From the NCBI GenBank assembly GCA_015228815.1, contig JADGCV010000004.1:1-39910 (forward strand): a DNA stretch of 39,910 nucleotides, in the 5' to 3' direction. The position numbers and the translations under genes are program-made. The DNA comes from Magnetococcales bacterium. Its GTDB lineage: Bacteria > Pseudomonadota > Magnetococcia > Magnetococcales > UBA8363. The notes beneath the pieces are model-generated. The model ran no database searches. It had not been told where the DNA came from and worked only from the letters and a program-made list of their open reading frames with translations. Shown in pieces: positions 10,556 to 27,712 of this stretch. Position 1 is the stretch's first letter. Every line of letters begins with the position of its first letter.

Positions 10556-11401
10556 TCAGGGAAGGTTCCCCTGGGATCCGGTGGTGGCGGGGTTGTCCCG
10601 TGAAGGCTGGCTTTTCTGGTCGGATTCCGGTGCCTCTGTCGGGGGGGTGTTTGTCATCTGGGTAGCCACTGGGGGATTGCTCGTATTTTCGGTGATCGCA
10701 GGGGATGAATGGCGCGAAACCATCAACTCGATGCGACGGTTGGCGGTTCGTCCGCTTTCGGATTCGTTGGTCTGGATTGGGGAAAACTGTCCCATTCCCC
10801 GCGCCTGAAGGCGCATCGGCGGGACGCCACCGGTTTCCGACAGAAATTGAACCACCGATGCAGCCATGGCGGCAGAATAACCCCAATTGGAGGTGAACGG
10901 AAGGTTGGATGGGGGGGGGGCGTTGTCGGTATGGCCACTGACGATGACTTCATGATCGACCTCCTTGAGCAGATTGGCCATCTCCAGAAGCGGGGACTGG
11001 ATGGTGTCCTGAAGGTCGAGGCCCGGGGCACGGAAGATTTTGTCGCTTTGCAGGCGCAGGAGAACCCCTTGTTCCGACTGGATCAATTCCGCTTCTTTAT
11101 TGGCCAGCATCGGGCCCAGGGAACGTTGCAGTTTTTCGACCAGTTGGACGATGATGATTTCCTGATGAAACTCGACCCCTTCCGCTTCGCGTCGCCCTGC
11201 CGATGACTGACCGGAGTAGGGAATACGCGGGATTCCCAACGCATCGTGAAAGGAGCCCATGCCCTTCTCGAACAGGGTGGGGTCCACCTGGGACGAGGAC
11301 AGCAGAAAAACGAGGACGATCAACACCAGGGACATCATGCTGGCATGGGTGTTGTTCAGCCACCGGGGGAAGCCCCTTGAACTGGAGGAATATTTGGACA
11401 T
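10556..11401 (-). CDS. MotB/PomB-like stator protein lacking the channel aspartate
   Basis: A 281-residue protein with one membrane segment (about 20-38) and an OmpA-type peptidoglycan-binding domain (SGHTDNAPPPSNLP near 155, then MGQFSPIQTN and NRRIELMV). It ends in a Pro/Thr-rich tail. The segment HASMMSL aligns with FADLMSL of PomB, so the ion-binding Asp essential in MotB/PomB is Ser21 here (codon AGC). The gene follows the motA-like gene by 10 nt. A run of ten C (10,911-10,920, coding strand) lies in the peptidoglycan-binding loop. It could be a specialised or non-conducting stator subunit, or an OmpA-like wall anchor paired with the MotA-like protein. Confidence 0.82.
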   Translation of the reverse strand: MSKYSSSSRGFPRWLNNTHASMMSLVLIVLVFLLSSSQVDPTLFEKGMGSFHDALGIPRIPYSGQSSAGRREAEGVEFHQEIIIVQLVEKLQRSLGPMLANKEAELIQSEQGVLLRLQSDKIFRAPGLDLQDTIQSPLLEMANLLKEVDHEVIVSGHTDNAPPPSNLPFTSNWGYSAAMAASVVQFLSETGGVPPMRLQARGMGQFSPIQTNESESGRTANRRIELMVSRHSSPAITENTSNPPVATQMTNTPPTEAPESDQKSQPSRDNPATTGSQGNLP

Positions 11402-11411
11402 GGCCGCCGGC

Positions 11412-12164
11412 TCATGGAGCGTTGCGTTGTGACGGGGGCAGTGCCGCGAGCAGGGCTTCCTGAAGCAGGCGGGGGTTGACCCCTTTTTGGATGCCGATCA
11501 TGCCATCGATGATGACCTGTTTGACCATTTGTTCATCCTTGCTGTAGGTTTCCAGTTTGGTGCAAACGGGGATGGCGATGCCGTAGGCGATCAATGAACC
11601 ATAGAAAGTCGCCAGGAAGGCGATCGCCATTCCGGGTCCGATGGCGGCGGGATCGGAGATGTTGGCCAACATTTGCACCAGACCGACAAGGGTGCCGATC
11701 ATGCCGAAGGCCGGGGCCATTTCGGCGACTCCTTCCCAGATGCCCATGCCGCGGGCGTGTCGTTCGGCAAGATAGGACAGTTCTTTGGACAGGACGCTGC
11801 CAAGAAATTCGGGATCGGCGCCATCGACGCAATGGTTGATGGCCCCTTGAAGGAAGGGGTCATCGGATTTAAATTTTTCCAACGCCAGAATTCCGTCCTT
11901 TCGGGCAATATTGGCCATTTCGATGATCTGACCGATCACCTTTTCGGGTTCGTGGACCTTGACGAAAAAGGCCCGGGCCAGGACATGGACCGAGCCGATG
12001 ACATCCCGTGGTTTATGGCGGATCAACATGGTGGCGATCGTGCCGCCGACGACGATGAGGAGCCCTGGAATGTTGACGAACATCATCAGTCCGCCATCGA
12101 TCAGGATGCCGGCGACGACAACGGAAAACGCCAAGAGTATCCCTATGATCGTTGCTAGATCCAT
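11412..12164 (-). CDS. MotA/PomA-type stator channel protein
   Basis: Inner-membrane ion channel subunit of 250 residues for the flagellar motor. The N-terminus MDLATIIGILLAFSVV closely resembles PomA. Four membrane segments are visible, with the cytoplasmic stretch ANIARKDGILALEKF and the third/fourth segments (PAFGMIGTLVGLVQML, then AIAFLATFYGSLIAYG) in their usual places. The start at 12164 has GGGA about 9 nt upstream. It is followed by the motB-like gene and two PilZ genes, suggesting a c-di-GMP-tuned stator. The PomA-like character hints at sodium, but its partner lacks the ion-binding Asp. Confidence 0.9.
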   Translation of the reverse strand: MDLATIIGILLAFSVVVAGILIDGGLMMFVNIPGLLIVVGGTIATMLIRHKPRDVIGSVHVLARAFFVKVHEPEKVIGQIIEMANIARKDGILALEKFKSDDPFLQGAINHCVDGADPEFLGSVLSKELSYLAERHARGMGIWEGVAEMAPAFGMIGTLVGLVQMLANISDPAAIGPGMAIAFLATFYGSLIAYGIAIPVCTKLETYSKDEQMVKQVIIDGMIGIQKGVNPRLLQEALLAALPPSQRNAP

Positions 12165-13297: not shown

Positions 13298-13376
<79 letters not shown>

Positions 13377-13422
13377 ATATCAAGCAGATTCAATAGTTTA
13401 CTGAAAATGCTTGCCGGTCAGT

Positions 13423-13460
13423 TTCAGCACATGTTACCCTTTCAGCACAAATTCAGCACA
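13423..13460 (+). repeat. Left-arm integrase sites, three TTCAGCACA copies
   Basis: Three direct copies of TTCAGCACA start at 13,423, 13,441 and 13,452. Two more copies in the same orientation, with the same 11-bp spacing, lie inside the other end at 25,360 and 25,371. Their placement inside both att sites fits arm-type binding sites of the tyrosine integrase. Confidence 0.65.
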
Positions 13461-13475
13461 GTGCGCGGGAGACAT

Positions 13476-14522
13476 GTGTTGGCCACTATCCGCAGAACCC
13501 CATCTGGAACGTGGCAAGTCCAGGTGCGACGGCAAGGGCATCCTTCTGTTACCAAGACATTCCGGCTACGTCGGGATGCTGAGACCTACGCCCGTCAAAT
13601 TGAAGATGAAATTGTGCGTGGGATCTTTTTGGACCGCACTATGGCTGAACAGATGACCGTAGCCAGTGCCTTGCAACGCTACTTGGTTGAAGTCTCTTCT
13701 TCAAAAGCACCGACTACAGCGCGTTCCGAAAAATCCAAAGCTGCACACTTGATGGCGGCTTTCGGCAAATACTCCTTGGCGGTGATCACTCCGGATAAAG
13801 TTGGGTGTTACCGCGATGATCGACTCAAGACGGCCAGCGCCAATCAGGTCCGTCTTGAATTGGCCTTGTTCGCTCATCTTTTTTCCACGGCTATTCGGGA
13901 ATGGGGCGTTGGTCTGGCCTTCAACCCAGTAAGGTCGATTCGTAAACCACCTCCTGGTGCAGGGCGTCATCGTCGTTTGACTCCTGATGAAGAGACGCGG
14001 TTACTTGCCGCTTGTGATGCCCACTCCAACCCCATGCTGGGGTGGATTGTGCGCGTGGCCATCGCTACGGCTATGCGTCACGGTGAAATCGTATCCTTGG
14101 AGTTGAGACAGGTAGACATCAATCGTCGGGTGGTGGTCCTGGAACAGACTAAAAATGGAGACGCGCGCACGGTGCCTTTGTCTCTCAAGGCGACCGATGT
14201 GATGCGGATTGTGCTGGAGTGGCCGTTGCGGCCAGACGACACCAAACTGTTATTTCCTGGGGAACCCGGCAAGGATGGACAACGACGGCCCTACGTCACC
14301 GGTCAGGTATGGCGTCACGTTTTGCTTCGGGCCGGGATCGTCGATCTTCATTTCCACGATCTTCGTCACGAGGCGGTTTCGAGATTGGTTGAGGCTGGTT
14401 TGTCGGACCAGGAGGTGGCCGCCATCTCCGGCCACCGTTCCATGCAGATGTTACGCCGTTATACCCATCTTCGGGGAGAAGATTTGGTCAACCGCCTTGA
14501 TAGGGCGGAGTCCCGCCGTTAA
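13476..14522 (+). CDS. int: Tyrosine integrase of the element
   Basis: Site-specific recombinase of about 348 residues with an N-terminal arm-binding part (ATIRRTPSGTWQVQVRR), a SAM-like core-binding domain and a catalytic domain. The catalytic set is visible: Arg in TAMRHGEI, His and Arg in HDLRHE, His in SGHRSM and Tyr in RRYTHL. The frame is open from 13,407, but the GTG at 13,476 or TTG at 13,479 is preferred. Either places the start just after a GGGAG site and gives the usual integrase N-terminus, leaving the arm-site repeats upstream. The gene adjoins attL and its 3' end overlaps the convergent small gene by 35 bp. It is the likely integrase for the tRNA-Phe site. Confidence 0.93.
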   Translation: MLATIRRTPSGTWQVQVRRQGHPSVTKTFRLRRDAETYARQIEDEIVRGIFLDRTMAEQMTVASALQRYLVEVSSSKAPTTARSEKSKAAHLMAAFGKYSLAVITPDKVGCYRDDRLKTASANQVRLELALFAHLFSTAIREWGVGLAFNPVRSIRKPPPGAGRHRRLTPDEETRLLAACDAHSNPMLGWIVRVAIATAMRHGEIVSLELRQVDINRRVVVLEQTKNGDARTVPLSLKATDVMRIVLEWPLRPDDTKLLFPGEPGKDGQRRPYVTGQVWRHVLLRAGIVDLHFHDLRHEAVSRLVEAGLSDQEVAAISGHRSMQMLRRYTHLRGEDLVNRLDRAESRR

Positions 14523-14715
14523 GCAATTCTAAAACCTTGACTGTGGGAAATTTCCTGTTCCTGCCAACTCTTACTCTCAGTTTGCGTACTTCTGGCCAGG
14601 GATGGTCTTTGGTGTACCTGACAAAAGCCGCAAAGCTTTCCGGTGATCCATTGTAGCCGACGATTTGCGCCAATTCGGCGCAGGTGACAAAGCGTGGTAA
14701 CGCTTTACTGGCCAT
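14488..14715 (-). CDS. Small excisionase-like DNA-binding protein
   Basis: A 75-residue protein with CAELAQIVGYNGSPESFAAF followed by a basic RKLRVRVGRNRKF stretch and a short helix. This is the layout of small winged-helix proteins such as AlpA or excisionases. The start at 14,715 has GGGAG about 6 nt upstream. It is the last gene of the leftward operon and overlaps the integrase 3' end on the opposite strand. A role in excision control is suggested by position only. Confidence 0.55.
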   Translation of the reverse strand: MASKALPRFVTCAELAQIVGYNGSPESFAAFVRYTKDHPWPEVRKLRVRVGRNRKFPTVKVLELLNGGTPPYQGG

Positions 14716-14797
14716 GTACCCTCCCTTGCTTATTCCGTCCATCATTTCTCCCCTTGTAGAACACTCGCTTGAATGGGACTGGTCCCATTGTCTTTCA

Positions 14798-15520
14798 TTA
14801 CAACAAATATCCAGTAAAATCGCGTCTCCGGGTCGAGATCCCCCAGCTACCATCGTCGTCACTTAGGTCAAAATACCTGGGATGGTCCAAGTCGTATCCG
14901 GTAAGGTCTGCCCATCCCAAATCGGCTGCCTGAAATTCAATGGTCAAATGTGGTTTCCACTCCCCATACCAACACGCCATGGCCGCACTCAACACCAAGT
15001 CGTCATGGATACCCTCCCGCCATGCTTCGTATTTGTCATGGCCACCCATGGTAATTTCCACCTTGAAGTTCAGCAGTTCCTGAACCAGGGTATCGGCTTC
15101 GGGCATCCCACCCGCCACCTTGAGCCTTCCGGATTGGAGAAGTACCTGGAGGGCGGAAACAAGATCCCGCTTGGGAACCCGGAAATCGCGTCCCTCCTCG
15201 CTTACAGAATCCCCGCCGGTGATGGTGACGGCAATCAGTTCGGCAGGCAGTCGGGCATCCCGGAACATGTCCACCACGGGGCGGCCCGCTCCCGTTCCAT
15301 CCACCACCAGCGTTGCTTTCCCATTCCTGAGTTGTTCACTGGCCAGCATTTTACCCACTTTGGCAACCTGATCGGGATAGGAAGTTCCCAGTTTGAATCG
15401 TTCAGCATGGCGCAGGTGGTAACGGGCAGGCTTTTCCTCGAAAAAACGTTCAAGGATCGTGACCGCCGTAAAATCTTGAGACTGCCCAAGATCCAAACCG
15501 ATGATGAAATCACTCAGCAT
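14798..15520 (-). CDS. Terminase large subunit, nuclease domain as a separate protein
   Basis: A 240-residue protein corresponding to the C-terminal RNase H-like nuclease of TerL, which cuts concatemeric DNA during packaging. The metal-binding acidic residues are present: Asp10 in IIGLDLGQSQDFTAV, Asp74 in LVVDGTGAG and Asp173-Asp174 in GIHDDLVLSAAMA. It begins precisely at the domain boundary and has its own ribosome site (GGAG, 7 nt before ATG at 15,520). The start overlaps the stop of the preceding 109-residue gene. The matching ATPase is encoded upstream at 15,849-16,607. No portal, capsid or protease gene follows. Confidence 0.85.
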   Translation of the reverse strand: MLSDFIIGLDLGQSQDFTAVTILERFFEEKPARYHLRHAERFKLGTSYPDQVAKVGKMLASEQLRNGKATLVVDGTGAGRPVVDMFRDARLPAELIAVTITGGDSVSEEGRDFRVPKRDLVSALQVLLQSGRLKVAGGMPEADTLVQELLNFKVEITMGGHDKYEAWREGIHDDLVLSAAMACWYGEWKPHLTIEFQAADLGWADLTGYDLDHPRYFDLSDDDGSWGISTRRRDFTGYLL

Positions 15521-15843
15521 GGTTGTTCTCCAGATTGATCGTTTCCCCAGAAGGGCCAAGGACTCTGATCATCAAAGATGTCCCGATGGAAATGTTTAAC
15601 TATTTCCGTATAGTACATTGTCTTGAATGTGGTGATTCGGTCCAGTCTAAACATCATGTGTTCAACAGCCACAACACGCAAATGCTGGCTGTTGGGTAAT
15701 CTTCTGGCAGGTTCCGGCCACACATGAGGTGAGATGAATTCCCCAACGTGAATAGGGTTGAATGGCTCGCTGGCTTCAAAGCGTGCAATGACGGTTTCAA
15801 CATCACCCGGTTCATAAATTTCAATCATATATCTCGTGAACAT
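15514..15843 (-). CDS. Unknown 109-residue protein between the two terminase genes
   Basis: Not recognised. It starts 5 nt after the TerL ATPase stop, with GGAG about 10 nt before the ATG, and its stop overlaps the nuclease start. That makes it an intended member of the operon. It is rich in aromatic, His and acidic residues (MIEIYEPGDVETVIARFEA, later KHFHRDIFDD) and has no membrane segment. An internal Met at 15,828 is an alternative start. Its position between the two halves of a terminase suggests a packaging-related or regulatory role, which is speculative. Confidence 0.7.
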   Translation of the reverse strand: MFTRYMIEIYEPGDVETVIARFEASEPFNPIHVGEFISPHVWPEPARRLPNSQHLRVVAVEHMMFRLDRITTFKTMYYTEIVKHFHRDIFDDQSPWPFWGNDQSGEQPC

Positions 15844-15848
15844 GGCGG

Positions 15849-16607
15849 TTATTCTCCAAAAAGCGGTTTGACTTCCGTTGATATGGCCGACATGACCACA
15901 TCGTGACTAAACACCGAATCGATACGTTCAGCGAAAATTCCCATGTATTCCTGGTTGAACCAAAGCGATCCCAGGGAGTTACGTTCTTCTTCCAGGAACG
16001 CCTTTGTGATGCGTGGGCATTGGTGGGCTGTGACCTTGATACGCTCCCATTCGTCACTACCATTGGTCCATTCCTCGAAGAAGTGCCCGATCTTGCCGTA
16101 GGGGGTACTCATCAACACCAGCTTGCCGTTTGAAACCGCCAGCATGGGGCGGACGGATCGATAAAGGGCGTCGGGAACGAAGGCCGCCTCATCCTCGATG
16201 AGGAGATCCACGGCAGAATAGCCACGAATGGAATCGGGGTTGTTGGGCAGGCTGACCACACGGGAACCATTGGGCAGGGTAAAGGCGTTCTTGTTGTCCT
16301 CATCCAGCTTGGGGCGACCAGTCAGCCCTTTCATGAAGCCGGTGACCTTCTGGAACAACAGTTTGGATTGCCGGTCGGATTTGGAAATGACCAACGTCAA
16401 GGAATCGGGTTGGAACAGGGCCGTATGCAGGGCCAGAATCGCGGTGGTCGTACTTTTTCCGGATTGGCGGCAGCAGTTCAGGATGATCCGCTTGGACGGG
16501 GATTGCAGCATTTGCGCTTGCCAGGAATCGGGGGCAAATCCAAGCCGGTTCCTGGCGAAGTGGGCAGGGTCCAGGGCGCAGATTAAGTCTTTGACCAGGT
16601 CGGACAT
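15849..16607 (-). CDS. Terminase large subunit, ATPase domain as a separate protein
   Basis: A 252-residue DNA-packaging motor ATPase. The Walker A-type loop CCRQSGKST is at about 45-53, Walker B with catalytic Glu at 134-140 (DLLIEDE), and the coupling motif MSTPYGK at 166-172. The C-terminus (FNQEYMGIFAERIDSVFSHD) matches the segment that normally leads into the TerL nuclease, but a stop codon follows at 15,849. ATG at 16,607 directly follows the TGA of the TerS-like gene, with GGAGG 11 nt upstream. The separate ribosome sites downstream argue against a simple frameshift. Confidence 0.88.
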   Translation of the reverse strand: MSDLVKDLICALDPAHFARNRLGFAPDSWQAQMLQSPSKRIILNCCRQSGKSTTTAILALHTALFQPDSLTLVISKSDRQSKLLFQKVTGFMKGLTGRPKLDEDNKNAFTLPNGSRVVSLPNNPDSIRGYSAVDLLIEDEAAFVPDALYRSVRPMLAVSNGKLVLMSTPYGKIGHFFEEWTNGSDEWERIKVTAHQCPRITKAFLEEERNSLGSLWFNQEYMGIFAERIDSVFSHDVVMSAISTEVKPLFGE

Positions 16608-17084
16608 TCAGCGATGATCCTCCAGGGCCTGGACGACGGCGCGTTTGGCTTCCGGGTAGGGGGCCAATGCCTTGACGATGATGGCTTGCATGTTGGTCCA
16701 TTCCGCCGAAACAAACAGGTTGACGGATGGCGTTTCCTGCAACTCCCCACGCATTTTTGCCAGCAGTTCCACAATGCGAACCAACTCCCGAATCCCACCC
16801 AGGGCTGCCGTAAAGTTGCCTTTTTTCTCGGCCTTGTTTTTGATTTCGTGGGCTTCATGTCGCAGTGTTCCCAGGTAATCCAGAAGATTGTCCCCGTAAG
16901 CCACATCAACGGCCTTCTGAGCCTCCACCATGGCCTTGGGGAGATGTTCCAGCTTGTGCCGTCGCAGTGAGTCCTTGGAAAGGCCGTATTGACGCGATAG
17001 AGCGCGAAAAGTCTCTCCGGCCACCAAGGCTTGGTCGATGTCGGCAATGCGCTTGTGGGCGCATACAGAGCAAGGGCGGGCCAT
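16608..17084 (-). CDS. Terminase small subunit-like protein
   Basis: A 158-residue protein with an N-terminal CSVCAH motif, a helix-turn-helix (ETFRALSRQYGLSKDSLRRH) and a long helical remainder. The position just before the TerL ATPase and the HTH-plus-helices layout fit a small terminase subunit that recognises the packaging site. The start at 17,084 has GGAGGG 8 nt upstream and overlaps the preceding stop as TAATG. Assignment rests on position and HTH, not on a close family match. Confidence 0.62.
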   Translation of the reverse strand: MARPCSVCAHKRIADIDQALVAGETFRALSRQYGLSKDSLRRHKLEHLPKAMVEAQKAVDVAYGDNLLDYLGTLRHEAHEIKNKAEKKGNFTAALGGIRELVRIVELLAKMRGELQETPSVNLFVSAEWTNMQAIIVKALAPYPEAKRAVVQALEDHR

Positions 17085-17428
17085 TAATTGAACCCTCCAA
17101 GCCAATATCCAGCACGAACCCAACGCAACTTCCGACCGTGGGACAAAAAGACCAGGTGGTTGCGGTCGGAATGAATCAGGGATGCGCCATCGGCAATCAG
17201 GGCCGCCATTCCGTGCAGATGGTCGTAGCTTTTGGCTTCATCTGGAGATGTTCCCAGGAAAAGGTTATCCCGATTCCACCCCAAAGAGGCCAACCGTTGG
17301 CCATGCTGACGGCGGAACCGTTGCAGGCTGGCCCGGATTCGCTCTTGGTGTTCCGGCGGGATGGGGTTGGCAACTGGCGGTGGTTCCGGGGCGGGTCGGT
17401 ACAGATCCAATGGGGCGGATTTCATCAT
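17084..17428 (-). CDS. Small unknown protein of the element operon
   Basis: A 114-residue protein that is not recognised. The N-terminus is Pro-rich and contains a helical EHQERIRASLQRFRRQHG segment, followed by a mixed region. Its start overlaps the primase stop (ATGA) and its stop overlaps the TerS-like start, so translation is coupled on both sides. No catalytic motif or membrane segment is visible. Confidence 0.65.
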   Translation of the reverse strand: MMKSAPLDLYRPAPEPPPVANPIPPEHQERIRASLQRFRRQHGQRLASLGWNRDNLFLGTSPDEAKSYDHLHGMAALIADGASLIHSDRNHLVFLSHGRKLRWVRAGYWLGGFN

Positions 17429-20040
17429 TCTTGGCTCGTGCCGTCACTGTAGGGGGAGGACCCAACCTCAGTCCGGGTTGGCCAATCGACACCCAGTTTT
17501 TCCAATTTTCTCAGACTCAAGACGGCGCATTTGTAAACATTGGGACCGATCGTCTTCCGCACGTTGCGTCCCAGCAAAAGGCCATCTCTGCTCAAATGTG
17601 CCACCAACCGTTTGGAGGTTGTGACAGGGAAATGATGTCCACGCTTTTCCAAGAAAGGCAGGATGGTCGCGGTATGGATGAACAGTCGCCCCCCCTCTTT
17701 TTCATCAACGAGAAAAGGGATGGGGGTTTCATGACGATTGGCAAGCGTGATTTCTTCGGCCAGTTTTTCCATGATGGCCAAAGATTCCCGGCGGACAAGG
17801 GCGGTCTCGACGAGATGTTGATTCATCAAATCCACCACCGTTTGCCAGACCGCGTCATTGGTATACCCGGAAAAGGTAAAGACTTCTTCCAGGGCAAACT
17901 GGAGGGCGGCATAGTTATCGACCAATCGACCGATGTTGGTGTCCGAAGGATCCCTCTTCAGGTGTTTGAACAGAGATTGGGTATGGATCTTCAGGCGTTC
18001 GTTCGCTTTAACCTTGTCCCAACGGTCCATGAGAAAATGCGCCCATTCCCGGACCGGGAAGGGTGTTTTGGGAGTGAACATACCCACTTCGTTTTTCATG
18101 CCGTCCATGTCGAACTGAACGATCTTGGTATTGATGGCGGCATCGGTAATGGGGTTGTCCTGTCCGATCAAACAAACTGGGGCAGCAACCAGAAATACCC
18201 CCTTCATGCCGTGGTGTCTGACGGAAGCGCGGTAGGAAACATGCATCAAGTTGACAAAATCATCGCAATCCTTGGGATCAATACGGGAGATTTCGTCAAA
18301 AAGGACGGGGTAAAGGTGGTTGGAAATGGCCTTCATGCGGCGGTAGGGGGTTTGGAGTTCCGAAGACTCTTTGAGGTCAAAACCAATCAACTTTTGCATG
18401 ATGCCAGCAATCACGGTTTTTCCCGATCCCGAATGACCGCCGATGACAAGATGGGGCCAGAATCCCAGGAAAACCTTCATCAGGCTCCCGAGAAACCAGC
18501 CCAGTTGAATGACGCCAAGGTGTTGCTTCATCAGGCCGTCAACCTGTTCCAGAATTCCCCGTGCCGATCCTGGGGGGGCGCTTGGGATGTGGAGACGATG
18601 GTAAACGCACTCTTCGTCGGTCAGATGAGAATTTTTGGCATCCATGAGTTGCAGCTTGCCACCCACATGGACCAGACCGATCACCCCGACCGACTCTTGG
18701 GAATGACGCTGGTCTCGTCCCAAAGTTTGAAGCAACAGTGCCATTTGCCGGGCGTTGTGCAGGTGACCCAGTTTTTGCAGCACGTTTGAACTGCTGATGT
18801 CCTCGGACCCGATGACGCGCCTTTGGATCACGTTGGAATCGGTTCGACGATAGGCCACCAAAACTTTGCGGGCACTGTTGCCGGAATCGGAAGGGTCGAT
18901 GGCGGTGGCGGGGTGGTGAATGATGATCGGGTCCAGGCGGTACACCCGGAAACCCGCCACCGGTTTGTATTCGGGACCATCTTCTGTTTCCCGGTGGTAT
19001 TCGGTGGTGTCCAGGTAGCAGATGAAATGGTTCAACCGGCCAAATTCATGGGTTGGAACAAAAACATCCTTGGCCGGAAACATGCTGGTATCGGCTTTGT
19101 TGGCCCATGTTCTGATTTGTTCCAGGCTTTTTCCCGCTTGCAGGGCATCATTGGGGTCCTTGAAGTCTTGAATCCATTCCACCCATTGAACGGTGACGCC
19201 TCCCGAGATGGCCCGATGATAAAGTGTGGCTGCCGCCTTCATGCCCGGGGGATCGTTATCAGCCAGAATCATCAACCTTTGATGGTCCTTGAGCCATGAA
19301 AAGGGAAAAGCCCCCGCCATGGAAACAGACAGGAAGGCCATTGCGGGACAACCGGCGGCGGTCAAGGTTAAAGCGTCGATGGGGGATTCAACCAGCCAGA
19401 TGATGGGGGCTTTTCTGATGGCAAGATCGGGGATGAAGAATCCACCGGACGCTTCACCCAGGAATCGCATTTTTGGTTCATGGCCTTCCTCCAGATACCG
19501 CATGTTGACTGCGGTCACCACCCCATCCTTGTTGACCACCGGGAAAGTAACCGCCGGTCCATGCTCTTTGGCGTTGCCCTTGGATGGAGACCAATCGGAG
19601 TAGCCGAAAGATTGGCCTTGCCAACTTGTAACCCTGTCGGCGGGAAGCTTCCTGGTTTCCGTCAGGTATTGGGCGGAAAAATGGAGGTTTTTGTGATTTT
19701 TGGTCTTGGTCCAAATCTTGATTGCGGCGTTTTCGTGATTGGCCTGATCAGGTGGATCATTTGCCGGACGGTCAAAAGGAAAGCCATACAGTTCGTGCAG
19801 GAACCGCATGGCCTCCTGGGTGTCAACTCCTTTGACGCGCTTTACAAGATCAATGCAATCCCCGCCTTCGGCGGAACCATGGTCCTTCCATTTGCGGCCA
19901 TCGGCAAAAACTGAAAGAGACGGTTTTTTGTCTTCCCTCCAGGGGGCGCGGTAGTTTTCCCCTTCTTTTTGGCGTTGAAGGCCGAGGCGATTGGCCAAGT
20001 CGTGAAGATCAATGGATTCCTTGAGTTTTGCGGCGTTCAT
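17425..20040 (-). CDS. Primase-helicase of the element
   Basis: An 871-residue replication protein. The N-terminus (about 1-70) follows the DnaG zinc-domain pattern (APWREDKKPSLSVF, then GGDCIDLVKRV) but lacks the zinc cysteines. A TOPRIM domain at about 210-275 has the Glu of VESPIDALTL and the acidic ADNDPPG. A P-loop ATPase of the DUF927/D5-like type has Walker A GGHSGSGKT near 533 and Walker B LFDEISRID near 577. It probably primes and unwinds DNA at the element's own origin. The start at 20,040 lies 10 nt after the Bro-N gene stop and has a poor ribosome site, so it is probably coupled. Confidence 0.85.
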   Translation of the reverse strand: MNAAKLKESIDLHDLANRLGLQRQKEGENYRAPWREDKKPSLSVFADGRKWKDHGSAEGGDCIDLVKRVKGVDTQEAMRFLHELYGFPFDRPANDPPDQANHENAAIKIWTKTKNHKNLHFSAQYLTETRKLPADRVTSWQGQSFGYSDWSPSKGNAKEHGPAVTFPVVNKDGVVTAVNMRYLEEGHEPKMRFLGEASGGFFIPDLAIRKAPIIWLVESPIDALTLTAAGCPAMAFLSVSMAGAFPFSWLKDHQRLMILADNDPPGMKAAATLYHRAISGGVTVQWVEWIQDFKDPNDALQAGKSLEQIRTWANKADTSMFPAKDVFVPTHEFGRLNHFICYLDTTEYHRETEDGPEYKPVAGFRVYRLDPIIIHHPATAIDPSDSGNSARKVLVAYRRTDSNVIQRRVIGSEDISSSNVLQKLGHLHNARQMALLLQTLGRDQRHSQESVGVIGLVHVGGKLQLMDAKNSHLTDEECVYHRLHIPSAPPGSARGILEQVDGLMKQHLGVIQLGWFLGSLMKVFLGFWPHLVIGGHSGSGKTVIAGIMQKLIGFDLKESSELQTPYRRMKAISNHLYPVLFDEISRIDPKDCDDFVNLMHVSYRASVRHHGMKGVFLVAAPVCLIGQDNPITDAAINTKIVQFDMDGMKNEVGMFTPKTPFPVREWAHFLMDRWDKVKANERLKIHTQSLFKHLKRDPSDTNIGRLVDNYAALQFALEEVFTFSGYTNDAVWQTVVDLMNQHLVETALVRRESLAIMEKLAEEITLANRHETPIPFLVDEKEGGRLFIHTATILPFLEKRGHHFPVTTSKRLVAHLSRDGLLLGRNVRKTIGPNVYKCAVLSLRKLEKLGVDWPTRTEVGSSPYSDGTSQE

Positions 20041-20050
20041 GGAGAGCAGA

Positions 20051-20596
20051 TTATTTCCACTTACGGTTGAGTTCCCGTTGGCCAGCTTCATTGCCCAATA
20101 GGCATGGATTTGGTAGCGCTTCACCAAGAAGTCGGCAGACGAGTTGAAGCCTGTTGGCCAAGGTTTGACGCCCGAAGGTGCCCTTGTTTCTGGTCAGATC
20201 CTGGAGGGTTTTTCGTTGAGGGCGGCTCAAAGCGATTTCATCTTTGAGGGAACCAGGGGCGGGCTTGATATGATTCCAGACAAAATCGGCAATGGCATCT
20301 TTCATCCGCTTGGACTTCTCGGTTTGGGACTCCATGCAGATGAGCAAGAAACCTTGGGGATGGTAGACGCGGGTGTCGTAGTTTTTTCCGTCATTTGCCC
20401 TTAACTTGAGGATGACTGAACAGGTTTCGATGTAAGGATTGCGCCCCAAAAGTTTGGCGATTCCCTTCTGGGGGTCCGCATATTCGAGCCACTCGCCAAT
20501 GGCTTGCCGGGTGGCATGAGGAACACCGTCAATCATGACGACTTGTGACAGTTGGATGTCTCCCCAGGAAAAGGGGATGGGTTGAATTTCATGCAT
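20051..20596 (-). CDS. Bro-N-type phage regulatory protein
   Basis: A 181-residue protein. Its N-terminal half (VVMIDGVPHATRQAIGEWL, later ADPQKGIAKLLGRNP and YHPQGFLLICMES) fits the Bro-N domain found in phage antirepressors. The C-terminal half is basic and helical. The start at 20,596 has GGAG 7 nt upstream. It is second in the leftward operon, directly before the primase. An antirepressor role against the divergent XRE repressor is plausible from context. Confidence 0.7.
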   Translation of the reverse strand: MHEIQPIPFSWGDIQLSQVVMIDGVPHATRQAIGEWLEYADPQKGIAKLLGRNPYIETCSVILKLRANDGKNYDTRVYHPQGFLLICMESQTEKSKRMKDAIADFVWNHIKPAPGSLKDEIALSRPQRKTLQDLTRNKGTFGRQTLANRLQLVCRLLGEALPNPCLLGNEAGQRELNRKWK

Positions 20597-20598
20597 GG

Positions 20599-20859
20599 TT
20601 ATTCTCCGTTGGGTTGGATTTGGGAAATTTTGGCGGCAACGAGAAGTTCTGCTTTTAACGCGCGTGCTTTTGGACCAGTCCAAGCACCAAGAAGAGCGGC
20701 CTTGGCATTGGACGTGTTGACTTTTCGCTGTCTGCACCAAGCCGTAAAAGTGGTTCCCTGTTCAACAAATCCGGCTTTAACCTTGGGAAAAATGGCACTT
20801 TCTTGTTCGGCCAACATGACGGCTTTTTCCTTGAAAAGTAGTGAAAATCCAGTGAACAT
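20599..20859 (-). CDS. Small HTH protein, BcepMu gp16-like
   Basis: An 86-residue protein with GTTFTAWCRQRKVNTSNAKA and a following basic helix. It resembles the small phage DNA-binding proteins of the BcepMu gp16 group. The start at 20,859 has AGGT 7 nt upstream and a TATAAT box just before it. It is the first gene of the leftward operon and divergent from the repressor gene, so a regulatory role is likely. Confidence 0.6.
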   Translation of the reverse strand: MFTGFSLLFKEKAVMLAEQESAIFPKVKAGFVEQGTTFTAWCRQRKVNTSNAKAALLGAWTGPKARALKAELLVAAKISQIQPNGE

Positions 20860-20907
20860 ATGAATTACCTATCCATTATAGATGTCACCAGGAAACGACA
20901 ATGTCAA
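20860..20907. promoter_or_regulatory. Divergent control region between repressor and replication operon
   Basis: Only 41 bp separate the two divergent starts. On the minus strand TATAAT sits at 20,875-20,880. Possible -35 boxes are TTGTCG with a 15-nt spacer or TTGACA with a 21-nt spacer. A dyad TGTC-N10-GACA (20,883-20,900) and an overlapping GACAATGTC palindrome (20,897-20,905) are candidate repressor operators. The repressor ribosome site AGGA is within the dyad. Confidence 0.45.
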
Positions 20908-21503
20908 GCGATGATTTCAACAGAAATGATGAATTTTGCTTGGAAGAGACGCAAAAGGAAGGGAAGCTCCTGGGGGAGCGGATTCGAGCGGCCCGGAGAC
21001 ATGCTGAGATGAGTCAGTCAGATTTTGCCGAAAAAATTGGAGTTACCAGTAATACTCTTAGCCGACATGAACGCGGTGAAACCATTCCGTCGGCTGATGT
21101 TCTAAAAAAAATAATTGAAGCTCTTGGCTATTGCGTTTCTGCGGATTGGCTGTTGTTCGGAAAGGCGGATGCTTTTGGAAAGGATCCAGTTCGAGTAAAG
21201 GACTTTGGGGCTGTGACAGCATTGAATTTTGATGGGAAGGGGTCTGTCGATGTGGTAATGGGGTCGTCAGATCTTGTGCAAATTCTTGAAACACTTCGTG
21301 AAATAGAAAAAAGCAGAAAAAACCCAAAAGAGGAAGTTGTTGACAGTTTGGGAAAGCTGATCGAGCGGTATGACACCATAAATGTAGAAATGATTCTTGA
21401 AGCGTTGATTTCGGTTCATGGAGTAGATTTAATACCATTCCATATTTACCATCCGGGGGGAAAGAAGAAAATGCCTCACCGTGTTCGTCGGCAGATAGTG
21501 TAA
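20901..21503 (+). CDS. XRE-family (cI-like) repressor
   Basis: A 200-residue protein with a classic helix-turn-helix at about 25-80 (ERIRAARRHAEMSQSDFAEK, then GVTSNTLSRHERGETIPSAD). A longer C-terminal part without a recognisable LexA-type protease follows. AGGA lies 7 nt before the ATG at 20,901. Orientation opposite to the replication-packaging operon is that of a master repressor. Unlike many cI proteins it lacks an obvious self-cleavage Ser-Lys pair, so induction may depend on an antirepressor. Confidence 0.82.
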   Translation: MSSDDFNRNDEFCLEETQKEGKLLGERIRAARRHAEMSQSDFAEKIGVTSNTLSRHERGETIPSADVLKKIIEALGYCVSADWLLFGKADAFGKDPVRVKDFGAVTALNFDGKGSVDVVMGSSDLVQILETLREIEKSRKNPKEEVVDSLGKLIERYDTINVEMILEALISVHGVDLIPFHIYHPGGKKKMPHRVRRQIV

Positions 21504-21619
21504 ACCGCGCGGCACGGCCTTTACACTTTACGGGTCGTTCAACCTGGTTGCGCGGCCATGCCCCCTTTCAAATCCTTCTGCCGCAACCTCTTGCCATCTT
21601 GACGATCAAAAACACCGTC

Positions 21620-21844
21620 TCACGCCGGTTTCTCGGCCTTTGACAGCAGTGCTTCAACGTGTTCCAACGCTCCTGATACTCCTTGAAGAATCAAATTGAT
21701 GCCTGTGATTGAACTGGCATTCGCATTCAAACCTTTGCTGTGTGCCAGCAGGGTTTCCAATGCGTCAATGGCGGATCTTGCCGCGCAAACGGTATCGATT
21801 GGGCAGGGATCCTGAATGAAAGGATTTTCGAGGATTCTTGACAT
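21620..21844 (-). CDS. Small unknown protein
   Basis: A 74-residue acidic helical protein that is not recognised. It has a clear GGAG site 7 nt before ATG at 21,844. The C-terminal two-thirds (SAIDALETLLAHSKGLNANA onward) look like a pair of helices, as in small DUF3077-type proteins; that similarity is weak. It lies alone between the repressor and the repeat-rich region. Confidence 0.5.
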   Translation of the reverse strand: MSRILENPFIQDPCPIDTVCAARSAIDALETLLAHSKGLNANASSITGINLILQGVSGALEHVEALLSKAEKPA

Positions 21845-22203
21845 GGATGGTCTCCGGTTCGCCTGAGAAGGCATTGACCTTCCCCACCATGGGGAAGGCC
21901 GGGAGTTCTCAACCGTTACCGGAACGGCACGACGGCCTTTGGACTTGCGTCTTGAACATGCGCCGCCGTCTCCCGGCCTTACTGGTTGCCGCGAAACCAG
22001 AAGCCCGGACGCAAAGAAAATGCCATCCGCATGAGAATGCAGGTGAATTCTGACCAGATACCGGTGACGGGTTGAGATGCCCAGACCCAGGATACCCGTT
22101 CCGGCAGAAAGATCAACCGGGAAAAAGAAAAACCAAAATCTTCAAATACAATCAAAAATGTCGATGATGTCTTTATCGGTCGGAAAAAACGTCGAGATAA
22201 AAA
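21845..22203. other. Non-coding interval left of the candidate origin
   Basis: No convincing gene is present; the short reading frames lack ribosome sites and family features. Composition becomes A-rich towards 22,100-22,200. Nothing else was recognised. Confidence 0.5.
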
Positions 22204-22593
22204 AAAAGGGTGGGGGGGGTGTCAAAAATGAGGGTCAAAGGGTCAAAATTAACCAAGGCATTGAAATAATGTAAAAATACGTGACCATGAAAAAATAGTG
22301 ATCAGGGTCAAAAAAAGGTAATTTTGTCTGACCATTGAATTATCACTTTGAAATATATGAAAAAATACCAAGTAAATCGAATGACCCTTATCGCCATATT
22401 TTGACCCTAATCAGGAAATGCTAATATTGAAAAAATGAGGGTCAAAATTTCCAGATGAGGGTCAAAATTTGAGGCTCCAGGGTCACTTCAGGGTCATTAT
22501 TTTTTTTAAAGATTTTATCAAATCAAATAGATATAGAAAATTTGACCCTTTGACCCTCATTTTCGAGACACCCCCCCCACTCCCTTTGGAAAA
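22204..22593. other. Candidate replication origin: GGGTCAAA repeats inside a long inverted repeat
   Basis: About 390 very AT-rich bp contain at least eleven copies of GGGTCA(A/T/C), most as GGGTCAAA. Plus-strand copies start at 22,232, 22,240, 22,305, 22,439, 22,459, 22,480 and 22,491; minus-strand copies are at 22,382, 22,400, 22,541 and 22,549. Both ends carry a tandem pair with 8-bp period next to a run of eight G or C. The whole end segments (about 22,205-22,250 and 22,538-22,592) form an inverted repeat of about 45 bp with small gaps. Iterons, AT-rich DNA and a nearby primase-helicase gene fit an element origin. It could also be a packaging or regulatory locus. Confidence 0.65.
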
Positions 22594-22814
22594 TTTCCTT
22601 GCACGCAAATGATAAAATTAATCACAGGTAGATTTTCCCTGCCAGTTTCTGGCGGTGGTGTTGGAAGGCTGCGGGGAATGGTGTGGGGCAGGCAGGGGAA
22701 CGACGAAAGGGAGAGACGGGGACAACAAACATGAGAATTGGAACATGGGGAAAACCCGGAAGGCGAGCGGGTGTTCAATCCCTTCCGGATTGCAGAACTC
22801 GGGATGATGGTGGG
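22594..22814. other. Intergenic interval right of the candidate origin
   Basis: About 220 bp, GC-richer than the repeat region. No supported gene, RNA or terminator was recognised. Confidence 0.4.
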
Positions 22815-23183
22815 TCAGTTGAAAACCGGTTTTTTCAGGATTCTCCAGATGGCCCTTTCACTCAGCTTGAACGTCCCTGCCAAACTGCGGACACTTTCCC
22901 CGTTGTCATAACGGAAGGCGATGTCCTTGTTCCGGGCTTCCTGCTTTGCTGCGGCCAGGAAGGGGATATAAAGCCGATCACCACCCCAAAGTTCCGAAAG
23001 CTTTTTGGCGGCGGGGAGTCCGATGGTTTGGGCAATCCAGTGTCGTTCATGCATCTTGCGTGGTGGGCAGACGTGCGTCCCGGCACATCGTTCCACCAGT
23101 TTGAAGGCAGACTCAAAACCGATTTTCTCCCCGATTTCCCGGATGGCGGTGGGAAGCGTTTCAATCCTGATTTTGGAATACAT
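22815..23183 (-). CDS. Mor-family transcription activator-like protein
   Basis: A 122-residue protein resembling the Mor/C activators of phage Mu. It has a helical N-terminal dimerisation part and GGDRLYIP near residue 80. A C-terminal HTH follows (FRYDNGESVRSLAGTFKLSE, then RAIWRILKK). Met 23,183 has AAGGA 11 nt upstream and is preferred over Met 23,219, whose AAAGG is only 3 nt away. Mor proteins switch on middle or late phage genes, so this may respond to or drive helper-phage-type expression. It faces the candidate origin. Confidence 0.72.
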   Translation of the reverse strand: MYSKIRIETLPTAIREIGEKIGFESAFKLVERCAGTHVCPPRKMHERHWIAQTIGLPAAKKLSELWGGDRLYIPFLAAAKQEARNKDIAFRYDNGESVRSLAGTFKLSERAIWRILKKPVFN

Positions 23184-23223
23184 GAATTTTTGTTTCCTTT
23201 CAGGCTGTAAGGTTGACATGAAC

Positions 23224-23282
23224 CTTTTGTAGGCCCGGTCAACCTGGGGTGACAGAAGACACTGACGAGTGTCCTACAAAAG
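23224..23282. repeat. 10-bp inverted repeat upstream of the Mor-like gene
   Basis: CTTTTGTAGG (23,224-23,233) and CCTACAAAAG (23,273-23,282) are exact complements, 39 bp apart. A smaller hairpin (GACACT, 4-nt loop, AGTGTC) lies just inside the right copy. The site is directly upstream of the activator start. It could be an operator pair or a leader structure. Confidence 0.45.
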
Positions 23283-23513
23283 CTTCAAGGGCAGGCTGGT
23301 CCGCTTGGCGGTTTCGCTACGGTTGAAAATCGGCGTGTAAAGGTGATGCTTCCCTCTTTTTGGCATCAAGGCTTTTTCCTTTTCCCGGCTTGGTCTTCTG
23401 GTGGTCAAACTGGCGTGCGAAATGAAGCGCGAAATGGGTTGAAATCAACCGCCAAATCAGGTAGAAATCAGGTAACGTAATTGTACTTATCTTACTTAAT
23501 GTGAGAGCCTTTG
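23283..23513. other. Upstream region of the second recombinase
   Basis: No gene seen. The last 60 bp before the recombinase start are AT-rich and probably carry its promoter, but no clear box could be assigned. Confidence 0.35.
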
Positions 23514-24518
23514 ATGAATACCCTGCCGATCCCCACCACCAACGATGAAATTACCGCCAACCTCCAAACCTACGCCCACGACTCCGACCAGGCGTTTTCC
23601 GAGAACACCATAAAGGCCATCAAGGCAGATTCCAAACGCTTTGCCGATTGGTGCAGTGAAAGGGGCGTTCCTTCTCTGCCTGCCGATCCGGACACCCTTC
23701 GCGCCTACGTCGATTGGGGGGCGGAAGAATTCAAACCGGCAACAGTGAAACGGCATCTTGCTTCCATAGCCCACCTTCACCGGGCAGCCCGTCTTCTGGA
23801 TCCCACCAAGGACAACAAGGTCAGGTTGGCCGTCAAGCGGATGAATCGGACCAAGGGCACGCGCCAGAAGCAGGCAAGGGGGTTGACGATGGTCGATGCT
23901 GCAATCATCAGGTCCAAGGTCGAAGGAACGGTAAGAGATACCAGGGATGTGGCCATGATCTTGGTGGCTCGTGACATACTGGCGCGGTCAAGTGAACTTA
24001 TCGCCATGAACCGGGAAGATGTCCAATTTGATGAAGATGGTGCCGGGACTGTTTTGATCCGCAAATCCAAGACAGACCAGGAAGGCATGGGGGCGCAACG
24101 GTGGATTTCTCCTGATACGGTGCATGCGTTGAAAAAATGGTTGCTGATCGCAGGAATTGACAAAGGGGCCATGTTTCAGGCGGTCACCAAGGGGGGTAAC
24201 GTCAAGCGGGGAACCAGGCTTTCCACCACCGATGTTTACCGATCAATCCAAAGGTTGGGTTCAATGATCGGTCTTGATTTGTCCGGTCATTCATGTCGGG
24301 TGGGGATGGCCCAGGATTTGACTGCCAATGGTGCCGAACTGGCGGCAATCATGCAGGCAGGGCGATGGAAAAGCCCAACCATGCCCGCGCGCTATTCCGA
24401 ACGCTTGGCGGCAGGCCGGGGGGCTGTGGCAGACCTTTACAAAAAAAAGGGGGTTGGGTTCAGGGAAGACAGCAAAGAAGGGAAGCCCTTGCCCCCCGCA
24501 CAGGACCGGCGACCGTAG
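23514..24518 (+). CDS. Second tyrosine recombinase of the element
   Basis: A 334-residue recombinase with an N-terminal SAM-like core-binding domain (NTIKAIKADSKRFADWCSER) and a catalytic domain. Catalytic residues are visible: Arg in ILARSSEL, His and Arg in SGHSCRVG, Trp in GRWKSP replacing the second His, and Tyr in ARYSE. It starts at ATG 23,514, three bases after a possible TTG. It is unlike the integrase at attL. It may act as a resolvase, invert DNA or be left from another integration event. Confidence 0.88.
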   Translation: MNTLPIPTTNDEITANLQTYAHDSDQAFSENTIKAIKADSKRFADWCSERGVPSLPADPDTLRAYVDWGAEEFKPATVKRHLASIAHLHRAARLLDPTKDNKVRLAVKRMNRTKGTRQKQARGLTMVDAAIIRSKVEGTVRDTRDVAMILVARDILARSSELIAMNREDVQFDEDGAGTVLIRKSKTDQEGMGAQRWISPDTVHALKKWLLIAGIDKGAMFQAVTKGGNVKRGTRLSTTDVYRSIQRLGSMIGLDLSGHSCRVGMAQDLTANGAELAAIMQAGRWKSPTMPARYSERLAAGRGAVADLYKKKGVGFREDSKEGKPLPPAQDRRP

Positions 24519-24670
24519 AGAACCATTGGGATGCGGCCCGGTCCAATACGCTCAAGTCAAGAGTATCATTTCTTCGGATTGTCCGTCCATGGGATTGTGA
24601 ACCTGGAATCCGGACATTGGCGGTGATACCTGAGTCAGAAGCATTGGAGGCCCATGGATGAGTGGCCCAA

Positions 24671-24958
24671 TCAAACTGTGTTGAAAACAGTCACATTGAT
24701 TTCACCTACCCTGTGTTCTGTTTCCCAAAGATCATAGATCATTTGCTGTGACAACCAGCTTTCCGGGCTTCCTCCAAAGGACTTGGAAAGGCGGATCGCT
24801 ATTTCTGGGGAAATACCGGATCGGCCATTCAGCAGAGAGGAAAGTGTTTTTCGAGTGACACCCAATCCCTCTGCCGCCTTGGTCACTGAAAGTCCCAGTG
24901 GGGCAAGACACAATTCCCGGATCACTTCACCCGGGTGTGGTGGGTTGTGCATGCGCAT
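24671..24958 (-). CDS. higA: HigA antitoxin
   Basis: A 95-residue HTH antitoxin. [20 protein letters not shown] near residue 8 followed by [20 protein letters not shown] is typical of HigA/VapI proteins. It follows the toxin gene, the inverted order usual for higBA. It binds the toxin and represses the operon; an AAAGGA site precedes ATG 24,958. The pair probably stabilises the element. Confidence 0.92.
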
Positions 24959-24976
24959 TGGGTTTTTCCTTTCCTC

Positions 24977-25255
24977 TCAGTGATAATCCAGATAATCAAC
25001 ATCAACGGCATCATTTCCCTGGAAGCGGAAGGTGACGCGCCAGTTTCCAGAAACCCAAACCGACCAGTGGTCGTTAAGCCCTCCTCCCAGTTGGTGAAGC
25101 TTCAATCCCGGAAGATTCATATCTTCAGATTGATGACTGGCTTCAAGCCGGGCCAAGATCATGCGCAGCCTCCCCTCGTGTTCAGGTTTGATCTTGCGCT
25201 TTGAGCCAGTTTCAAAAAAGAGTTTCAAGCCTTTATGTCGGAAATGGATAATCAC
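24977..25255 (-). CDS. higB: HigB toxin (RelE/ParE fold)
   Basis: A 92-residue predicted ribosome-dependent mRNA endonuclease. The N-terminal FRHKGLKLFFETGSKRKIKP and the C-terminal SGNWRVTFRFQGNDAVDVDY are characteristic of the HigB/RelE family. The start is GTG at 25,255. It lies 18 nt upstream of higA in one operon. A 12-bp palindrome just upstream is a candidate HigA operator. Confidence 0.92.
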   Translation of the reverse strand: MIIHFRHKGLKLFFETGSKRKIKPEHEGRLRMILARLEASHQSEDMNLPGLKLHQLGGGLNDHWSVWVSGNWRVTFRFQGNDAVDVDYLDYH

Positions 25256-25264
25256 GCCGCAAGT

Positions 25265-25276
25265 GTAACCTGTTAC
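25265..25276. promoter_or_regulatory. Palindrome upstream of higBA
   Basis: GTAAC-CT-GTTAC lies 10 bp before the higB start codon. HigA proteins bind palindromes in their own promoters, so this is a candidate operator. Confidence 0.4.
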
Positions 25277-25359
25277 GTTTCATGGTTCAATCCAATCACG
25301 ACATAACCACCTTCCCGTTTCCATATTTATCCGGACTTGAAAAACGCGATCCCCTCCCC

Positions 25360-25379
25360 TTCAGCACAATTTCAGCACA
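25360..25379 (+). repeat. Right-arm integrase sites, two TTCAGCACA copies
   Basis: Copies start at 25,360 and 25,371, with the same orientation and 11-bp step as the pair at 13,441/13,452. Both pairs are followed by a TGC-rich GGG block. They lie about 120 bp inside attR. Confidence 0.65.
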
Positions 25380-25435
25380 ATGCCGGGTTTCCATAAGGTG
25401 GGGACGAAATACGGCAACCTAATAGATACATATAA

Positions 25436-25459
25436 ATATCATATATTTATATATGATAT
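25436..25459. repeat. AT-only palindrome beside attR
   Basis: Two 11-bp arms (ATATCATATAT and its complement) are separated by TT. It sits between the arm sites and attR. It may be a bending or protein-binding site for excision, or a small cruciform-forming element. Confidence 0.5.
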
Positions 25460-25497
25460 GCCATGCCATGATCCCCCGTGTTTTGATTTTAAGGTTA

Positions 25498-25547
25498 GAC
25501 TGAAAATCCTCGTGTCGATGGTTCGATTCCGTCCCTGGGCACCATAA
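25498..25547 (+). repeat. attR: 50-bp copy of the tRNA-Phe 3' half
   Basis: Identical to 13,327-13,376. Only the 3' part of the tRNA is present, with no acceptor 5' strand or D arm, so this is not a functional tRNA. It marks the right end of the integrated element. Confidence 0.93.
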
Positions 25548-25592: not shown

Positions 25593-26336
25593 TTACTGAA
25601 GGGGGAACCCCTTCCCAGACCCATCCATTAATAATATTTGGTATCTATCGGTCAGTTCCTGCCAAAACCTGCAAAACAGGGGAGCCTTTCTGGCAATGAT
25701 CTGGGGATCCGCACACATAAGCAACTCGGGGGTATCTTCCTTTTTCGAGAAATGCCCCTTTGAAAAGTACTGGAGATGGGCATCGTCAAGCCACTGAGAA
25801 AGTTTGTCACGACAACTTCCAGTACTATCGTCCATGCTACTGAACTGTTCCGGATGCTCAAAATTGATGCCTCGGGTCGCCAAAGTGTAACGCATGGCGA
25901 CGTGATGGCCTTTGAACTTGGAGCAACGGCCAAAAGTTCCATCCCAATCGGCGACGAGCCAAGCCTCCACTTCCGGGGCGGCAAAGCCGACAATACAATC
26001 AAGGTCACAATTCATCTCCGACAGCACTGTTTCGATGGCCCCCTGGGCCAGTTTGTGATCGCGGCAATCCAGGTCATCCAAAATGAAGAGAAAGTCGGGG
26101 CGGTGATCGCTTCTTTGCAGAAGTTCTTGCAGCCGTTCGCGCAATTGCGGGATAAACGACTTGCCAGTTCGTCCCAGACCTGAAAGGGATCCCTTTTCTC
26201 CAGCCTTGTACGGCAGGGGGGATCTCTGGCGGATGGGCAATTGCCTCTCGAACCTGCAAGAAGGGAAATGCTTTTGGAGAAAAAGAGGCATTCTCAGTTC
26301 GCTGTAACCACCACCGGCCATCAACCAGGCTACCAT
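25593..26336 (-). CDS. TOPRIM/DUF4276-like partner of the adjacent ATPase
   Basis: A protein of about 247 residues. An N-terminal Gly-rich stretch with Glu (LMAGGGYSELRMPLF), the acidic FLFILDDLDCRD near 90, and APEVEAWLVADWD match the layout of RloB/DUF4276 TOPRIM-like nucleases. It overlaps the upstream ATPase stop by several bases; Met 26,336 has a GGGGG ribosome site, and Met 26,342 is also possible. The last 16 or so residues are encoded by a REP-like repeat, so the natural C-terminus may have been replaced. ATPase plus TOPRIM pairs such as AbiL act in abortive infection; that function is inferred. Confidence 0.65.
   Translation of the reverse strand: MVAWLMAGGGYSELRMPLFLQKHFPSCRFERQLPIRQRSPLPYKAGEKGSLSGLGRTGKSFIPQLRERLQELLQRSDHRPDFLFILDDLDCRDHKLAQGAIETVLSEMNCDLDCIVGFAAPEVEAWLVADWDGTFGRCSKFKGHHVAMRYTLATRGINFEHPEQFSSMDDSTGSCRDKLSQWLDDAHLQYFSKGHFSKKEDTPELLMCADPQIIARKAPLFCRFWQELTDRYQILLMDGSGKGFPLQ
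25598..25651 (+). repeat. REP-like repeat, left copy
   Basis: Nearly identical to 27,661-27,712, with two 1-base indels and one substitution. Its hairpin stem is GAAGGGG/CCCCTTC; the 3-nt loop reads GAA here and TTC in the other copy, an exact inversion. It overlaps the 3' end of the TOPRIM-like gene. Confidence 0.75.
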
Positions 26337-27610: not shown

Positions 27611-27633
27611 CAGCCCCGTTCCGAACCAAAACC

Positions 27634-27650
27634 TTGGGGCGTTGCCCCAA
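27634..27650. repeat. Small GC hairpin beside the right REP-like copy
   Basis: TTGGGGC, a GTT loop, GCCCCAA. Together with the adjacent palindrome it makes a two-hairpin REP-like unit of the type also seen at 60-77. Confidence 0.5.
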
Positions 27651-27660
27651 ACCCCACTGG

Positions 27661-27712
27661 GAAGGGGTTCCCCCTTCCCAGACCCATCCATAATAATATT
27701 GGTGTCTATCGG
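27661..27712 (+). repeat. REP-like repeat, right copy
   Basis: Second copy of the element at 25,598-25,651. It ends across the stop codon of the gene at 27,706. The two copies exactly bracket the ATPase/TOPRIM module. Confidence 0.75.

Follow-up and report, generated by a model that had tools for sequence, protein, structure and literature searches.

The large terminase subunit (TerL) of this Magnetococcales element is encoded by two complete genes, one for the ATPase and one for the nuclease, broken at the domain boundary. Both lie in a stretch of 39,910 nt (in the following called the window), to which all positions refer unless a relative is named. Judged from its gene content, the region around them is probably a phage satellite, with a predicted complete terminase of its own (TerS, ATPase and nuclease), that would be packaged into the procapsid of a helper phage.

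Two genes for one large terminase

The ATPase gene (15849..16607, minus strand) encodes 252 amino acids and matches Terminase_6N in Pfam (2.3e-13) and phrog_7579 in PHROGs (1.2e-64), a family of ATPase-only TerL proteins of 239 amino acids. A Walker A motif (RQSGKS), a Walker B motif (IEDE) and the STP coupling motif mark its product as an ASCE ATPase of the terminase type. The nuclease gene (14798..15520, minus strand, ATG at 15520) encodes 240 amino acids and matches Terminase_6C (3.6e-6) and phrog_27743 (1.4e-45), a nuclease-only family of 233 amino acids. The catalytic acids D10, D74 and D173/D174, expected of the RNase H-like nuclease of TerL, are kept in the alignment.

We modeled the nuclease with AlphaFold from 26 input sequences (pLDDT 83). 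The RNase H/RuvC-like model matches the TerL nuclease domains of phages G20c, D6E and T4 with Z-scores of about 16–18, and a likeness to RuvC is also present in its fold. Its residue 1 corresponds to residue 285 of G20c TerL (Z 18.0, rmsd 2.1) and to residue 392 of T4 gp17 (matched over residues 392–561, Z 16.9), which places the split at the domain boundary. The original prediction of complete motif sets in both halves and of a break at this boundary is thereby borne out. While TerL normally has both domains in one polypeptide, here they come from two genes with a third gene between them.

This third gene (15514..15843, minus strand) encodes a 109-amino acid protein with a small beta domain. 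It is separated from the ATPase gene by 5 nt and overlaps the nuclease gene by 7 nt, and a GGAG-type ribosome site precedes each of the three starts, in agreement with the tight coupling and separate ribosome sites described before.

The gene at 16608..17084 (minus strand) was assigned to TerS by homology in the relatives described below. Its product combines an N-terminus with a CxxCxH motif and a helix-turn-helix (HTH) with a conserved C-terminus, and a homologue adjoins TerL in nearly all relatives. A TerS-like gene lies upstream of TerL in Meiothermus and Thermus phages too, although the record of Thermus phage Riverbug puts the label TerS on a gene downstream of TerL instead. The assignment is supported by the TerS of one relative (L030:9493-9969), in which a Terminase_2 N-terminus (PF03592, 3.5e-13) is joined to the same conserved C-terminus as in the window.

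The att-bounded element and its relatives

The original prediction overlooked the element that carries these genes. A tRNA-Phe gene (gaa; 13298..13373, plus strand; ARAGORN, Rfam) is the integration target, and a perfect 50-bp direct repeat of its 3′ end forms attL (13327..13376, plus strand) and attR (25498..25547, plus strand). The element bracketed by these repeats is about 12.2 kb long (13377-25547). In sibling species without it, the prmA-tRNA-Phe neighborhood is kept; this comparison, which matched the left side, from prmA to tRNA-Phe, without a corresponding right flank, supports excision but does not prove it. Just past attR, at 25593-27691, a DUF4276 gene and an AAA ATPase gene form a pair that resembles the candidate defence system HEC-01.

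Next to attL lies a tyrosine integrase gene (13407..14522, plus strand; Pfam Phage_integrase 1.7e-32, phrog_1 6.5e-62). A small protein encoded at 14488..14862 on the minus strand (longest ORF; likely start 14715 or 14742) is a candidate Xis by its position. In the window it matched no Pfam or PHROGs family; relatives have an excisionase-like gene at this position, with a DUF1233 excisionase match of 4.5e-4, under the cut-off, for the counterpart in the related element L067. Beyond the terminase genes follow, all on the minus strand, genes for a 114-amino acid protein kept in the related elements L020 and L021 (17084..17428), a primase-helicase with zinc ribbon, Toprim and NTPase region (17425..20127; phrog_5629 2.7e-89, Zn_ribbon_DnaG, Toprim), an antirepressor-like protein (20051..20740; phrog_245 3.5e-6) and a small HTH protein in a Cro-like place (20599..20859; phrog_15281 2.3e-15). 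The remainder encodes a CI-like repressor (20901..21503, plus strand; HTH_3 6.5e-16), a Mor-type late transcription activator (22815..23219, minus strand; Pfam Mor 2e-14, phrog_836 1e-24), a second tyrosine recombinase (23511..24518, plus strand; Phage_integrase 4.8e-13) and a HigA antitoxin and HigB toxin pair (24671..25255, minus strand; HTH_3, HigB-like_toxin 4.1e-21). The second recombinase, at the far end of the element, is kept in most related Magnetococcales elements, and a 97% identical copy occurs in a sibling species (G043:C65) in which the ATPase was not detected. Searches of the element's proteins against Pfam and PHROGs gave no portal, head/capsid or tail family. With an integrase, a small att-bounded extent and no full set of virion genes, the element shares features with phage satellites.

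The same module occurs in six more Magnetococcales elements. One of 10.4 kb lies at a tRNA-Val gene with a 51-bp repeat (L065), and another adjoins a tRNA-Ser gene with a 30-bp repeat that has up to two mismatches (L067). Two others lie at tRNA-Asn (L021) and tRNA-Glu (L047) genes; their att repeats were looked for and not found, probably because contigs or far ends are incomplete. A fifth (L020/L070) is truncated by the contig end. The sixth (L069), a contig of 14,266 bp, has ends identical over 127 bp and is therefore likely to represent a circular form.

Searches with the ATPase in public contigs, mostly of metagenome-assembled genomes, yielded 50 relatives (18 viral and 32 genome loci). 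Similar repeat-bounded elements of 9–15 kb were found in at least eight other genomes, with examples in Myxococcota, Thermoleophilia, Ferruginivarius, Clostridiales and Methanoperedens; TerS, ATPase and nuclease are present in L025, L031, L039, L041, L045, L049, L050 and L026. Among the 25 families listed for their non-core proteins are integrases, primases and DNA methyltransferases. An ATPase gene next to a nuclease gene is also found on three plasmids of Salinibacter ruber, pSR11 (11.2 kb), pSR14 (14.9 kb) and pSR31, the first two of which have primase and ParA genes as well.

Some relatives encode structural proteins, and the group is therefore not uniformly free of virion genes. Short tape-measure-like proteins of 608–628 amino acids are encoded beside the split terminase on pSR11 and pSR14 (L087:7132-9018, L088:9641-11467) and in the Ferruginivarius element (L045:6792-8648), and tail-fibre-like genes are present in L026 and L041. 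In Clostridial relatives a gene for a major capsid protein (MCP; phrog_422 in L036 and L050) lies upstream of TerS (L036:7384-8613, L050:8626-9462, L034:4981-5835, L033:1961-2812). L036 has a weak scaffold match in addition, and no portal was seen in these MCP-bearing relatives.

Based on this gene content, infection by a helper phage would lift the repressor, and the element would excise and replicate with its own primase. Its TerS would then pick out satellite DNA, the separate nuclease would make the initial and the final cut, and the ATPase ring would dock on the helper's portal and pack the DNA into the helper procapsid. By supplying the whole motor and not TerS alone, such a satellite would need neither the TerL nor the packaging signal of its helper. 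In the host genome we found neither a second Terminase_6N protein nor a PF04860 portal, the sole portal family searched, and hence no resident helper prophage.

Could the ATPase-nuclease pair have left packaging for another role, in defence, plasmid resolution or replication? The RuvC likeness of the nuclease fold would fit this, as would the lack of a portal or capsid gene next to the pair in the window. We nevertheless regard it as unlikely, given that TerS is kept with the pair almost everywhere and that in L030 a canonical Terminase_2 N-terminus has replaced the usual one. Moreover, in two phage-like contigs (L006, L023) a portal gene directly follows the nuclease gene of the split TerL, so that the pair serves packaging there.

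The CI-like, Mor-type and antirepressor-like genes are types known from phages, as would also be expected of a prophage, decayed or incomplete, in which the terminase module survived while head and tail genes were lost. Yet the att repeats are perfect and the ORFs intact. The same compact layout recurs in several phyla and in the seven Magnetococcales elements, which, as far as their sites are readable, occupy different tRNA genes. Elements that had decayed one by one would not all retain one and the same gene set, and the probable circular form speaks against decay as well. This explanation appears quite unlikely, and we favor a satellite with its own terminase.

Distribution of the split and of the 109-amino acid protein

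ATPase and nuclease are separate ORFs, usually abutting, in about 39 of the 50 relatives, and these split forms span many bacterial phyla and Methanoperedens archaea. Gap and frame were measured for 38 loci, three further Magnetococcales elements among them. Motif I of the nuclease begins at most 85 nt from the ATPase stop codon in 35 of these; overall, the spacing ranges from overlaps up to about 1.9 kb, and in several cases an in-frame stop or whole genes part the two halves. About 35 split TerLs have no gene at all between the halves, whereas genes other than that for the 109-amino acid protein are inserted at the junction in L043.

TerL proteins that are fused, with the nuclease domain at the C-terminus, are a minority, seen in seven viral contigs and in Meiothermus and Thermus phages. 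The original prediction had named a continuous TerL at loci lacking the 109-amino acid gene as evidence against a designed split or an inserted subunit. Such proteins of about 415 amino acids do exist in Meiothermus phage MMP17 and in Riverbug, but as part of this minority. In a phylogenetic analysis of the ATPase, the window groups with L020, L021 and L047 in a well-supported clade (100/99). Fused forms appear in at least two places and deep support is weak, so that this tree cannot tell whether the split or the fused form is older.

In two relatives, TerL nuclease genes occur in tandem (L030:10756-11430 and 11385-11984; L035:10783-11463 and 11451-11960). In the first of each pair the aspartate of motif I is gone (DLGQ to SVG), and by sequence each pair probably consists of one inactive and one active nuclease. 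Plasmid pSR31 (L091) has two tandem nucleases as well.

While the split is thus kept widely, sequence relatives of the 109-amino acid protein were found in Magnetococcales only; the search gave no significant phage homologue and none in viral contigs. One homologue occupies the same slot but is cut by the contig end (L020), and another sits after the nuclease gene (L047). The slot in L021 holds a 220-amino acid protein whose weak alignment to the 109-amino acid protein (E 0.14 against a small profile, E 0.003 against the L020 fragment) may reflect two copies but is not secure. Nothing lies between ATPase and nuclease in L065, L067 and L069. The GC content at third codon positions is 0.455 for the 109-amino acid gene compared to 0.589–0.688 for TerS, ATPase, nuclease and primase. 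A structure model of the protein (pLDDT 78) found nothing in the PDB with E <0.1; in BFVD it matched two uncharacterized small phage proteins with E <0.001 (best A0A3G8FGB6, E 5.4e-7).

These observations bear on the idea, put forward in the original prediction, that TerL has three parts here, with this protein as a regulatory or bridging subunit. The three genes are tightly coupled, a stop codon overlapping a start, and L020 has a homologue in this slot, both of which would agree with it. However, the gene is missing from nearly all other split TerLs, its homologue in L047 lies after the nuclease gene, its codon composition sets it apart from its neighbors and its model resembles small phage proteins and not terminase parts. 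We consider such a subunit very unlikely. As a conserved TerL subunit the protein was rejected, being confined to Magnetococcales and missing from most split TerLs; it is probably accessory cargo of one clade, outside the conserved motor. Of the alternatives considered originally, a designed split or an inserted regulatory subunit, the conserved split at the domain boundary therefore stands and the regulatory role is not supported.

Nothing was found in favor of an assembly error or of programmed frameshifting that would yield a single TerL, and both can be dismissed; the original prediction had likewise argued against a frameshift. In the window the halves are parted by an entire gene, and the relatives, with their varied gaps, show all three frame relations (0, 1 and 2), incompatible with a shared frameshift mechanism.

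Comparison with known systems

The element resembles PICIs and SaPIs in its small size, its integration at an att site and its integrase, repressor and replication genes, a virion gene set being absent. PICIs are known to carry at most TerS and to rely on their helper for TerL, whereas this element has a complete TerS and TerL, the latter split. PICIs and SaPIs redirect packaging, as the element described here would according to its genes.

The nearest annotated phage relatives are Meiothermus MMP7 and MMP17 and Thermus Riverbug, with ATPases 41–45% identical. They share the upstream TerS-like homologue but have the nuclease domain in the same protein as the ATPase, as one fused TerL in a complete phage. 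The families phrog_7579 and phrog_27743 already contain ATPase-only and nuclease-only proteins of this kind; phrog_27743 is labeled as of unknown function, and the labels do not link both families as one split TerL. Models of the T4-type motor move DNA by coupling linked ATPase and nuclease domains. A natural two-piece TerL therefore bears directly on how the packaging motor works; if the satellite reading is true, a covalent link between the domains would not be needed for packaging.

The cf-PICIs make their own capsids (PMC10803314). The element shares with them its own packaging genes but differs in that no portal, capsid or protease genes were found in it with Pfam and PHROGs; the Clostridial relatives, with MCP and a scaffold-like gene, differ from it in this respect. 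PICMI and AH14b are likewise minimal satellites with integrase and primase (PMC10803314, PMC4936722). A review that lists the known satellite families describes PICMI as depending only on a packaging motif (PMC11389934). AH14b is reported to be packaged into the capsids of its helper (PMC10803314, PMC4936722) and has no identified terminase, unlike the element in the window. In the open-access literature we found neither a split or two-gene TerL nor satellites that combine TerL with a primase or carry a full terminase but no shell; the main accounts of VEIMEs and of tycheposons lay outside this scope, and priority is uncertain.

The relatives might, with about even chances, represent a widespread, unnamed class of satellites in bacteria and archaea that carry a full motor with a permanently divided TerL and pack their own DNA into foreign procapsids. 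The cultured Salinibacter ruber plasmids pSR11 and pSR14 offer systems for testing both this strategy and the split motor. In the literature examined, satellites either depend on the large terminase of their helper or, in the case of cf-PICIs, form their own capsid. A full motor without a shell would be a different strategy, extending to Methanoperedens archaea.
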